Source of the DNA: Proteobacteria bacterium UBA4575
GTDB taxonomy: Bacteria > Pseudomonadota > Gammaproteobacteria > UBA4575
Assembly: GCA_002386945.1 (NCBI GenBank)
Contig: DGKH01000015.1
Location: 1 to 10,361, forward strand
Reading direction: 5' to 3'
DNA: 10,361 nucleotides
Below the pieces are notes generated by a model. That model had not been told where the DNA came from. It was given only the letters and a program-made list of their open reading frames with translations, and did no database searches. Shown here piece after piece: positions 3,340 through 6,885 of this stretch (its first letter is position 1; every line of letters starts with the position of its first letter). The position numbers and the translations under genes were made by a program.

Positions 3340-3966
3340 ATGTCTTATCCACAACTATTATCTCAGACTGAATTCTACCTAAGCTCGAGCGCGGCCGCTA
3401 ACCTCCCAGATGACGTAGGCCTCGAAGTTGCGATGGCTGGACGCTCTAATGCGGGCAAATCCAGCGCATTGAACGTTTTATGTACAAAAAAGGCCTTGGC
3501 ACGTACCTCGAAAACACCTGGACGGACCCAATTGATCAATTTTTTCCGGGTCAATGAGGATGCTTGCTTGGTCGATCTGCCCGGTTATGGCTTTGCTAAG
3601 GCGCCGCTCAAACAGCAACAGAAGTGGATCAAACTGCTGGAGCACTACTATTCAACCCGAAAGGCCTTGAGTGGGACGATCTTGGTGATGGATATCCGCC
3701 ACCCCCTACGTGATGCCGACTATTCTATGCTGGAATGGTGTGTCTTTAATCGCTGTGACATTCATATCCTACTCAATAAGTGTGACAAATTAGGCAGAAA
3801 CCAAGCAAATCAGCAGCTTTTTGCCGTACGCAAGGAGTTGAGTGAGGTCGCGGAGATCGGTGTTAGCGTGCAATTATTCTCAGCACTGAACAAGGTCGGC
3901 CTGGATGAGGCCTCTGAAAAAATCTGTAATTGGCTAGATTTGGCCCCAAAACAGGCTCCAGAATAA
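3340..3966 (+). CDS. engB: ribosome-biogenesis GTPase EngB (YihA/YsxC)
   Basis: 208 residues when started at ATG 3340, matching the family (about 200-210). TRAFAC-class GTPase motifs: G1 GRSNAGKS (34-41), a switch I region KTPGRTQ (59-64), G3 DLPG (79-82), G4 NKCD (146-149) and G5 SAL (181-183). EngB is an essential GTPase in many bacteria, needed for assembly of the large ribosomal subunit. The frame stays open back to a GTG at 3241, but the 33 extra residues show no resemblance to the family and sit next to the cytochrome c4 promoter region, so I prefer 3340. Its Shine-Dalgarno is weak (GAAAG). It converges on polA, as spf-flanking yihA does in E. coli. Function is secure; the exact start is moderately secure. 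Confidence 0.93.
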   Translation: MSYPQLLSQTEFYLSSSAAANLPDDVGLEVAMAGRSNAGKSSALNVLCTKKALARTSKTPGRTQLINFFRVNEDACLVDLPGYGFAKAPLKQQQKWIKLLEHYYSTRKALSGTILVMDIRHPLRDADYSMLEWCVFNRCDIHILLNKCDKLGRNQANQQLFAVRKELSEVAEIGVSVQLFSALNKVGLDEASEKICNWLDLAPKQAPE

Positions 3967-3991
3967 GCAGAACAGATAAATTTACGGGCAT

Positions 3992-4025
3992 AAAAAAACC
4001 CCAAGAAGCATGAGGCCACTTAGGG
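3992..4025 (-). terminator. intrinsic terminator of the candidate sRNA (and of polA read-through)
   Basis: On the minus strand CCCTAAG (4025-4019) pairs with CTTGGGG (4005-3999) over 7 bp, including one U-G pair, around a 13-base loop. It is followed at once by TTTTTTT (3998-3992). The orientation serves minus-strand transcription only; the plus strand has no T run after the stem, so it does not terminate engB. Confidence 0.75.
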
Positions 4026-4094
4026 ATATCGAGTCAACACCTAGATTTCAGGTATCGTTATACTGCTAGAGAGGAACGATCATCAATGAACGTC
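3992..4094 (-). ncRNA. candidate trans-acting small RNA in the polA-engB gap (Spot 42/ErsA position)
   Basis: Predicted transcript of about 103 nt on the polA strand, from near 4094 to the end of a U7 tract at 3992. Hairpin 1 has stem ATCGTT (4080-4075) with AACGAT (4059-4054) and a 15-base loop beginning CCTCTCT. Hairpin 2 has ACCT (4053-4050) with AGGT (4042-4039). Hairpin 3 is a U-tailed terminator. A promoter-like sequence lies just upstream and there is no credible ORF. A pyrimidine-rich exposed loop and a U-tailed terminator are typical of Hfq-dependent RNAs that mask Shine-Dalgarno sites. In E. coli the polA-yihA gap encodes Spot 42; in Pseudomonas the polA-engB gap encodes ErsA. I do not see clear sequence identity to Spot 42. 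The alternative is that the terminator belongs to polA and the other hairpins are chance or 3'-UTR structure. Confidence 0.6.
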
Positions 4095-4100
4095 ACGATA

Positions 4101-4128
4101 ATAGAGTCGCTGAATTTAATTTAGTTCC
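4101..4128 (-). promoter_or_regulatory. sigma-E/AlgU-like promoter for the candidate sRNA, with an overlapping sigma-70-like -10
   Basis: On the minus strand GGAACTA (4128-4122), a 16-base spacer and TCTAT (4105-4101) resemble the extracytoplasmic sigma-E/AlgU consensus GAACTT-N16/17-TCTGA: 5 of 6 match in the -35, 3 of 5 in the -10. The bases TATTAT (4103-4098) also match 5 of 6 of a sigma-70 -10, but the hexamer 17 bases upstream is poor. Either would start RNA near 4091-4096. Confidence 0.45.
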
Positions 4129-4131
4129 TTT

Positions 4132-4155
4132 AGCGGCATAAAATAAATAACCGCT
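4132..4155 (-). repeat. small hairpin directly after the polA stop codon
   Basis: AGCGG (4155-4151) and CCGCT (4136-4132) form a 5-bp stem with a 14-base AT-rich loop starting at the base after the TAA of polA. No U tract follows, so it is more likely a 3'-end or processing structure than a terminator. It lies just upstream of the candidate sRNA promoter. Confidence 0.35.
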
Positions 4156-6885
4156 TTAGTGCGCCTGATCCCAGTTATCCCCACTGTTTGCATCCACTTC
4201 CAGCGGCACAATCAGATCAGCTGCCGCAGACATCAATCGCACAATCTCTGGCTTCACTATATCTAGCCGATCTATCGACAGTTCAAAGACCAATTCATCA
4301 TGCACCTGCATAATCATGCGCACGTCTTGATTTGAGTCTTCTATCCATTGATCCACACTGAGCATCGCACGCTTAATAATGTCGGCCGCGGTACCCTGCA
4401 TCGGGGCGTTGATCGCGGTACGCTCGGCATATTGCCTACGTTGCGCGTTACGTGATTCGATTTCAGGCAGATACAAGCGTCGACCGAATAAGGTTTCAAC
4501 ATAGCCAAGCTCGTGTGCCCGTACGCGCGTACTCTCCATATAGGCCTTCACCCCCGGATAACGCTCAAAATAAAGATTAACGTACTCGGCTGCCTCAGAA
4601 CGGCTAATACCCAGCTGCTTAGCCAATCCAAAGGCCGACATGCCATAGATTAAGCCAAAGTTGATCGCCTTCGCCGCCCGTCGTTGGTCTTTAGTGACCG
4701 CATCACGAGCCATTGAGAAGACCTCGGCTGCTGTGGCGTTATGGATATCTTCACCGGCCGCAAAGGCATCACATAGGCGCTGATCTTTCGATAGATGCGC
4801 CATGATGCGCAATTCAATCTGTGAATAGTCAGCGGCCAACAGGGTATGCCCTGGCGTCGCAATAAAGGCTTGGCGGATACGCCGGCCTTCTTCACTGCGA
4901 ATCGGGATGTTTTGTAAATTGGGATCACTGGATGAAAGTCGTCCAGTGGCGGCAACCGCCTGATGATAGGAGGTGTGGATGCGCTGGCTATCTGGATCGA
5001 TCTGCTGTGGCAGCTTATCGGTATAGGTCGACTTGAGCTTCTTTAAGGAGCGGTATTCAATAATAATTCTAGGTAAATCATAGTTTTGCGCCAATTCCTG
5101 CAGCACATCTTCGGCCGTCGAGGCCTGCCCCTTCGGGGTTTTACGAATAACCGGTAGCCCTAAATCCTCAAACAGGATGCTTTGTAACTGCTTTGGTGAA
5201 TCCAAGTTAAATTCTGTGTTCGCTGCGGCAAAGGCCTCTGCTTGTAGTTGGTCGAGCTTGCTCGCCAACTCCCCACTCTGCTCATGCAGTAGTGCTTTAT
5301 TAATAAACACACCGTTGCGCTCAACTTTTGACAGAATCGACAACACTGGCACCTCTAGCTCGCAATACAGCTTTTCTGCGCGATGATTTGAGCTTAGGCG
5401 TGGCCATAGTTTGTTATGTAGTCGCAAGCACATATCCGCATCTTCTGCGGCATAGTCCAGTGCTACTGCCAAATCCACCTGATTAAACGTTACTTGCTTG
5501 GCGCCCTTACCGGCGACATCGGTGAACTTAATGTTTTCGTGGTTCAAATGCAGCTGACAGAGGCTGTCGAGATCATGCCGGCTGGCGGTCGAATCATTGA
5601 TATAAGACTGCAGCATGGTGTCATGCTGGATACCCAACAGACGCACGCCATGGCGCGCTAATACCGATTGATCGTATTTTAGGTTATGTCCCAGCTTAGG
5701 CCGTGTAGGGTCCTCTAAGATCGGCTGCAACACCTTCAGGGCTTGTTCTAGGCTAATTTGTTCCGGCGCACCGATATAATCATGTGCCAGCGGTAGATAG
5801 GCCGCCTTGCCCGCCTCTACTGCAAATGACATACCGACTAAATTGGCCTGCATGTAATCGAGACTATCGGTCTCGGTATCAAACGCGATCAATTCAGCAT
5901 CCGCCAGTTTTAGCGCCCATTGCTCTAGCTGTTCTAGACTGAGGATTAATTCGTATTCGCCGGGTAAGGCCTGCTGACTCTTGCTGCTAGCAGGTGCAAC
6001 CTGACCATCGGCCGTCTTCGCCTGTCCCCCTTGTAGTTCCTGCAGCCAAGAATTAAAGCCTAGCGTCTCATACAGTGAAAGCAACTGGTCCTTATCTTGT
6101 TCCATCATTTGCAGTTCATCAGGAACGAATTCAAGCTTCACCGCACAGTCGATCGTTGCTAACTCATATGACAGCGGTAACTGAGGCAGTGCCGCGCGTA
6201 ATTTTTCACCAATCTTACCGCCGATTTTATCCGCATTTTCGATCACGCCATCCATCGTGTGATACAGGCCTAGCCACTTGGCTGCGGTCTTTGGTCCAAC
6301 CCCAGGCACCCCCGGGATGTTATCGACCTTGTCTCCCATTAAGGCGAGGTAGTCGATGATCTGTTCCGCATTAACACCAAATTTATCATGCACACTGTCT
6401 GGCTTAAGCAGGCTGTTGTTCATGGTGTTGATCAAACGCACATCATCATTCACTAACTGCGCCATATCCTTATCACCGGTGGATATCAATACTTGATAGC
6501 CGGCCTCAACGCCCTGCTTAGCGAGGGTACCAATGACATCATCGGCCTCAACGCCTGGGATCGCATGCATCGGCATACCCAGTGCTTGAATAGCGTCATA
6601 CAGTGGTTCAATCTGCACCCGCAGATCATCCGGCATCGGTGGTCGATTGGCCTTGTATTCGGCATAGAGATCGTGTCGAAAGGTTTTCCCTTTGGCATCA
6701 AAGATGACGCCGACACGATCAGGGCAAGATTCTTCAATCAATTTACGTAGCATGCGTAAGACACCATAGACCGCTCCCGTCGGCATACCTTCACGGTTGG
6801 TTAACGGTGGCAGGCCGTGAAATGCACGGTATAAATAGGATGACCCGTCAACAAGGACGAGTAATGGTTTTTCTGGCTTAGGCAT
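4156..6885 (-). CDS. polA: DNA polymerase I
   Basis: 909 residues, full length, with all three activities apparently intact. The 5'-3' nuclease domain (about 1-290) has Asp13, Asp63, VEADD (112-116), TGDKD (136-140) and the GDKVDNIPGVPGVGPKTA helix-hairpin segment at 184-201. The 3'-5' proofreading domain (about 310-500) keeps DTE (336-338), Asp405 in GHNLKYD and YAAED (478-482). In the polymerase domain, motif A DYSQIELR starts at Asp686, motif B RRAAKAINFGLIYG is at 735-748 with Lys739, and motif C VHDE is at 861-864. The protein ends with the family-typical SGDNWDQAH. It fills gaps in excision repair and removes Okazaki primers. Start ATG at 6885 has no strong Shine-Dalgarno, but the following MPKPEKPLLVLVDGSSYLYR aligns with the usual PolA N-terminus. 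Divergent from the LOG gene, convergent with engB. Confidence 0.98.
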   Translation of the reverse strand: MPKPEKPLLVLVDGSSYLYRAFHGLPPLTNREGMPTGAVYGVLRMLRKLIEESCPDRVGVIFDAKGKTFRHDLYAEYKANRPPMPDDLRVQIEPLYDAIQALGMPMHAIPGVEADDVIGTLAKQGVEAGYQVLISTGDKDMAQLVNDDVRLINTMNNSLLKPDSVHDKFGVNAEQIIDYLALMGDKVDNIPGVPGVGPKTAAKWLGLYHTMDGVIENADKIGGKIGEKLRAALPQLPLSYELATIDCAVKLEFVPDELQMMEQDKDQLLSLYETLGFNSWLQELQGGQAKTADGQVAPASSKSQQALPGEYELILSLEQLEQWALKLADAELIAFDTETDSLDYMQANLVGMSFAVEAGKAAYLPLAHDYIGAPEQISLEQALKVLQPILEDPTRPKLGHNLKYDQSVLARHGVRLLGIQHDTMLQSYINDSTASRHDLDSLCQLHLNHENIKFTDVAGKGAKQVTFNQVDLAVALDYAAEDADMCLRLHNKLWPRLSSNHRAEKLYCELEVPVLSILSKVERNGVFINKALLHEQSGELASKLDQLQAEAFAAANTEFNLDSPKQLQSILFEDLGLPVIRKTPKGQASTAEDVLQELAQNYDLPRIIIEYRSLKKLKSTYTDKLPQQIDPDSQRIHTSYHQAVAATGRLSSSDPNLQNIPIRSEEGRRIRQAFIATPGHTLLAADYSQIELRIMAHLSKDQRLCDAFAAGEDIHNATAAEVFSMARDAVTKDQRRAAKAINFGLIYGMSAFGLAKQLGISRSEAAEYVNLYFERYPGVKAYMESTRVRAHELGYVETLFGRRLYLPEIESRNAQRRQYAERTAINAPMQGTAADIIKRAMLSVDQWIEDSNQDVRMIMQVHDELVFELSIDRLDIVKPEIVRLMSAAADLIVPLEVDANSGDNWDQAH

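Follow-up and report, generated by a model that had tools for sequence, protein, structure and literature searches.

Spot 42 (RF00021), an RNA of enterics and Vibrionaceae that is under cAMP-CRP control, lies in the gap between polA and engB in Pantoea and Photorhabdus. In Pseudomonas, the same gap holds ErsA, or Pseudomon-1 RNA (RF01719), a transcript of 132 nt on the polA strand. A strict dependence of ErsA on sigma-22 has been described (PMC7565897), and the ErsA targets amrZ and anr are reported to be positively regulated, with predicted contacts in the U-rich unstructured region of ErsA (PMC5819304, PMC8575079). The Xanthomonadaceae RNA sX13, encoded downstream of polA, is described as having three stems with C-rich loops, and its repression as needing C-rich motifs of sX13 itself together with G-rich motifs on the target side; the same source presents it as restricted to Xanthomonadaceae and independent of Hfq (PMC3771888). 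Among the papers searched, none named both ErsA and sX13, and the sX13 paper alone dealt with a small RNA downstream of polA; among the matches listed, judged by title and the start of the abstract, no paper dealt with a class-wide family of the kind described below.

The stretch analysed here, referred to as the window, comprises 10,361 nucleotides of contig DGKH01000015.1 from the gammaproteobacterium UBA4575, and contains a polA-engB gap of 189 nt (3967-4155). An earlier note, made from the letters of the window, had proposed a small RNA gene in this gap, perhaps a divergent or new member of a family of regulators defined by its position, and the family context, promoter and position reported below bear this out in large part. 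The promoter-like element, hairpins and U7 terminator that it listed on the polA strand are present in the gap in that order, and this layout is confirmed to be real and more than a product of chance. We consider it probable that the gap encodes a trans-acting RNA of about 103 nt with its own sigma-E-type promoter, which belongs as a divergent member to a class-wide family and would lower translation by pairing with Shine-Dalgarno (SD) sequences. The features are as follows, R2 being a covariance model of that family.

3340..3966, plus strand: engB (yihA/ysxC), TIGR03598 220.8 bits, convergent with the predicted RNA
3992..4094, minus strand: predicted small RNA, about 103 nt long if its 5' end is placed by the promoter; R2 match full-length over 3992-4129
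3992..4025, minus strand: intrinsic terminator, stem 4025-4019 with 4005-3999 plus inner pairs, U7 at 3998-3992
4035..4057, minus strand: hairpin of 9 pairs, 4057-4049 with 4043-4035
4062..4080, minus strand: counterpart of the family's second hairpin, weak, with one C-A mismatch in the window
4068..4076, minus strand: pyrimidine-rich stretch UUCCUCUCU, the proposed seed against SD sequences
4075..4094, minus strand: predicted 5'-proximal hairpin, 4094-4091 paired with 4078-4075 and further pairs inside
4101..4105, minus strand: -10-like box TCTAT, separated by 16 nt from the -35 box; TC in 19/19 aligned sequences
4122..4128, minus strand: -35-like box GGAACTA of sigma-E-type pattern; GAACT in 19/19 aligned sequences
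4156..6885, minus strand: polA, stop codon 4158-4156, upstream neighbour on the same strand as the predicted RNA

The predicted RNA thus adjoins engB, converges with it and lies downstream of polA. Its promoter-like site spans 4128-4101 on the minus strand and reads GGAACTA-N16-TCTAT, a box pattern which we take to be that used by the RpoE/AlgU sigma factors. With both strands scanned, GAACT[TA]-N16-TC-(1-2 nt)-[AT] has a single match in the 10,361 bases, and a site of the form GAACT[TA]-N16-TC, one mark of the family as defined here, stands directly upstream of the window's RNA. A 5' end at about 4094, where the earlier note had also put it, follows from the position of this promoter. The source genome encodes RpoE (283 bits, over the cut-off) and Hfq (75.7 bits), with GAACTT-N16-TCGT upstream of rpoE itself, as expected for an autoregulated sigma-E gene. 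A sigma-70 promoter for the predicted RNA was also sought on the minus strand of 3600-4600, and none was found.

The window's folding and terminator scan, taken alone, are weak evidence and close to chance: the fold of the 103-nt RNA is modest (z -1.79, with 10 of 200 shuffles equally good), and the scan gave two terminator-like sites in 1001 bases versus 0.8 expected. The hairpin predicted near the 5' end and the one around the pyrimidine stretch compete with each other, and the former is not kept in the folds of the two congeners. The window's hairpins, to which the earlier note had appealed, are not strong evidence by themselves. If the gap were merely the terminator and 3' tail of polA, with the promoter-like site and the other hairpins present by chance, one would find what these near-chance scores and the position of the terminator, after polA on the same strand and with no second terminator-like site listed on the minus strand of the gap, do present; we nevertheless regard this as quite unlikely, since the sigma-E-type site ahead of the terminator is conserved in the family, the hairpins covary in relatives, and at four loci (L059, L128, L273, L275) the element has the orientation of engB and points away from polA.

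Conservation of stems and promoter among relatives, on which the earlier note had staked its case, was found and favours an RNA. Both congeneric genomes retain the promoter, a CTCTAGC core and the terminator, the last with every pair preserved across all three congeners. Element identity in the three congener pairs is 81, 65 and 75%, against 71, 54 and 50% at the 4-fold degenerate codon positions in engB and polA for the same pairs and 45-65% in the flanks of the gap. Because the element is kept in congeners, exceeds both 4-fold sites and flanks, and recurs in its layout through the family and class, we place it above chance. A motif search located the element next to engB in 18 of the 19 genomes from the family, the exception being L009, and at one locus (L020) among 11 from elsewhere in the class. 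Of the 16 family genomes that belong to other genera, 15 have the canonical form in this slot.

The 16 sequences from outside the window's genus have a first, second and third hairpin and the terminator in common. Their second hairpin has an invariant CCGCU/AGCGG stem around UCCCUCCC, whilst the third-hairpin loop contains CCC in 13/16 and CUCCCC in 7/16, and the three examples folded are strongly structured (z -5.67 to -7.64). In a plain MAFFT alignment of the family form, 91.3% of cells pair and both partners change at 8 of 18 pairs, values that 0 of 500 shuffles reached in either case; the count of further pair types was not above shuffles (328/500). Among the three congeners, 96% of cells pair and covariation is not significant (72/500 shuffles). 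At L009 (G017), a sigma-E-type site is present in the polA-engB gap with no family RNA found after it, possibly through loss or replacement. The long gaps of L004-L007 and L010-L014 carry a small ORF between polA and the RNA, on the polA strand, with a hydrophobic N-terminus (for example, 565-927 in L007, 120 aa, and 2349-2762 in L012, 137 aa); this ORF is absent from the window's genus.

Two covariance models were built, R1 from the 16 relatives outside the window's genus and R2, as a second round, from 110 R1 matches; the window's genus contributed to neither. The terminator entered both models as sequence only, because RNAalifold on alignment A1 left misaligned arms unpaired. Searched against 370 class genomes irrespective of position (E<=0.001), R1 matched 114 and R2 matched 195, about half. 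Excluding eight family loci (the training set) and L026 and L028 (from the engB search) from 117 loci leaves 107, which represent 107 of the 111 genomes outside the family that R1 matched (G042, G100, G371 and G382 are left out), include one from the genome of training sequence L020 (L059), and are counted without further copies inside a locus. At 87 of these 107, engB and/or polA is a neighbour, 84 of them within 500 nt. The surrounding sequence at the other 20 contains neither gene, some of these loci lying near contig ends and others having different neighbours; R2-only loci had engB and/or polA as a neighbour in 20 of 26 cases and neither in six. Three loci with neither gene (L122, L139, L252) have a gene of 486-487 aa upstream and one of 202 aa downstream; in L122, the sole one of the three tested against Pfam, the pair consists of an M48 peptidase and a two-domain cytochrome c, the latter with the same Pfam match as the window gene adjoining engB.

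Alignment A5 (n = 110), which is fitted to the model and hence leans to structure, shows both-side changes at 18/18 pairs, in 466 cells compared with a shuffle mean of 119. CCC or CTCC occurs in all 110 second loops and in 99 of the third loops, and GAACT falls within the first ten bases in 97/110. In a phylum sample, R2 matched 12 of 249 genomes, all labelled as the same class, the share of the 249 lying outside the class not being given. At 10 of 117 loci, the RNA is repeated in tandem with two to four copies per gap, as if duplicated in place.

Comparison with named RNAs links part of this family to described systems. Rfam at gathering thresholds recognized anti-hemB (Burkholderia RNA 7, RF02837) in five of 60 R1/R2-family loci and nothing else, and all six anti-hemB matches (these five and Aromatoleum L186) overlap R1 matches on the same strand. 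On 14 named loci, it gave ErsA at three (Pseudomonas), Spot 42 at two (Pantoea, Photorhabdus), anti-hemB at one and none at eight. R1 had no match at E<=1 in seven named genomes, comprising two of Pseudomonas and one each of Xanthomonas, Pantoea, Legionella, Pseudoxanthomonas and Stenotrophomonas; for sX13, this covers one genome from each of Xanthomonas, Pseudoxanthomonas and Stenotrophomonas. R2 matched 16 of 17 loci titled Pseudomonas, all except L195, with individually modest E-values (0.0012-0.19 in 651 kb), the link being carried by consistent place and a promoter in register. The RF01719 model matched 13 of 370 class genomes, over its cut-off once (G165); nine of these matches coincide in place and strand with R1/R2 sites (G071, G077, G147, G159, G173, G256, G275, G291, G350), those in G052 and G097 lie in polA-engB gaps where R2 is weak (14.2 and 20.3 bits), and that in G285 lies elsewhere. 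The Spot 42 model matched one of the 370, below its cut-off, and R2 gave weak partial matches to Spot 42 (20.5 and 14.8 bits). One record titled Pantoea sp. Cy-639 (L235) has, in the neighbourhood of engB, an R2 match like those of the Pseudomonas loci (21.5 bits), and may be mislabelled.

The R2 matches to ErsA, the RF01719 matches at R1/R2 sites and the overlap of anti-hemB with R1 together make it probable that ErsA and anti-hemB are two branches, each under its own name, of a single sigma-E-type RNA family that spans the class and has C-rich loops; for Spot 42, membership is not shown. ErsA resembles the window's RNA in its gap, strand and sigma-E-type promoter, which is in register in R2 alignments, and its folded loci have C-rich unpaired stretches in two hairpins, as in the R1/R2 family, but it differs from the window's RNA in length and in its other hairpins. 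Of the two RNAs named at the outset for this gap, ErsA, along with anti-hemB, is the likelier kin of the window's RNA and Spot 42 the less likely, as the sigma-E-type promoter points to the former pair and the R2 resemblance to Spot 42 is weak. The Rfam check suggested at the same time, with Spot_42 and other small RNA models, gave no match in the gap at gathering scores: RF01719, RF02837 and RF00021 are all without a match in the window at that level, and without one at E<=10 in 3900-4200. Hits there to Spy779816 (E 0.29), NsiR1 (E 1.3) and L17DE (E 4, other strand) lie far below gathering scores and are attributed to chance.

The window's copy scores low against the family models. The segment 3992-4129 scores 13.9 bits with R1 (E 0.72 in 57 kb) and 17.9 bits with R2, the latter being the best in the window, followed by 12.5 (E 0.083 in 90 kb), or E 1.7e-4 with the gap searched alone; these E-values are rough, and a large part of the R2 match is due to the promoter and terminator. 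For the congeners, R2 gives 29.2 bits (L003, E 4.2e-4 in 90 kb) and 20.5 bits (gap of L002, E 5.5e-5). The genome-wide R1 and R2 searches (E<=0.001) did not match the window's copy. Compared with the family form, the window's RNA is shorter, has a weak second stem and lacks a CCC-containing loop; the loop of its second-hairpin counterpart, CCUCUCU, has CUC and neither CCC nor CUCC, and its third-hairpin loop likewise has neither. Position, promoter, order of parts and family context nevertheless make homology likely, not proven, and the window's RNA is likely, again not proven, to be a shrunken, divergent branch of the R1/R2 family.

Low letter similarity to other genera and the weak model match would also fit an independent origin, in which another small RNA driven by sigma-E came to occupy this slot and has only a resemblance to the family, and Pantoea and Photorhabdus, where Spot 42 occupies this gap, illustrate that a different RNA can. 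Such an origin is nonetheless very unlikely given the equal promoter spacing, a model match that runs end to end at the right place and strand in all three congeners, and the presence of the canonical form there in 15/16 other family genomes. Alternatively, the gap may contain a decaying remnant, an ancestral family RNA losing its function in a small-genome genus (1.2-1.5 Mb). The loss of C-rich loops, the second-stem mismatch, the weak fold and a genome of 1.36 Mb versus 1.6-2.7 Mb in other family genera are in line with decay; the promoter, CTCTAGC core and terminator are, however, intact in three species and the element is conserved above 4-fold sites, and we judge a remnant unlikely.

Under the preferred reading, a functional member of the family, envelope stress would free RpoE, which would transcribe the predicted RNA as one discrete transcript. 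The stretch UUCCUCUCU, whose complement is AGAGAGGAA, would act as the seed that covers the SD sequences of target mRNAs, possibly with the assistance of Hfq, and translation of a set of such mRNAs would be lowered. This mechanism finds support by analogy in the C-rich and G-rich motifs described for sX13 and the sigma-22 dependence described for ErsA (PMC3771888, PMC7565897). The likeness to the way sX13 works is one of description, and sX13 differs in the Hfq independence and family restriction given for it; a simple analogy with ErsA is weakened because the reported activation of amrZ and anr involves another region of that RNA. For duplexes predicted between the pyrimidine stretch and the start regions of seven genes in the window, energies ranged from -2.7 to -9.2 kcal/mol, which is unremarkable and stands without a control run.

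On balance, we lean towards one ancient sigma-E-driven, translation-blocking RNA gene beside engB/polA across the Gammaproteobacteria as delimited in GTDB style, beta lineages included, of which ErsA and anti-hemB, and perhaps sX13, would be clade-specific names and most members would never have been annotated. Some lineages would carry it as tandem arrays, and the window's genus would have pared it to the promoter, the SD-complementary stretch and the terminator. R1 and R2 join two families that Rfam lists apart (RF01719, RF02837) within a sample of 370 genomes, and provide a candidate envelope-stress regulatory RNA for many uncultivated lineages. A small RNA traceable over many families would also allow the change of target sets to be compared around a fixed promoter and loops.

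The loci with tandem copies are L098 (G266), L151 (G173), L075, L085, L092, L095, L106, L128, L132 and L154. Second sites in four genomes (L255, L259, L262 and L272, from G131, G171, G265 and G329) are R2 matches away from engB and polA; each of these genomes has another R2 match, and the second sites are possible dispersed copies. At L066 (G355), a radical-SAM/TRAM gene and a proteasome-subunit gene flank the RNA in place of polA and engB.
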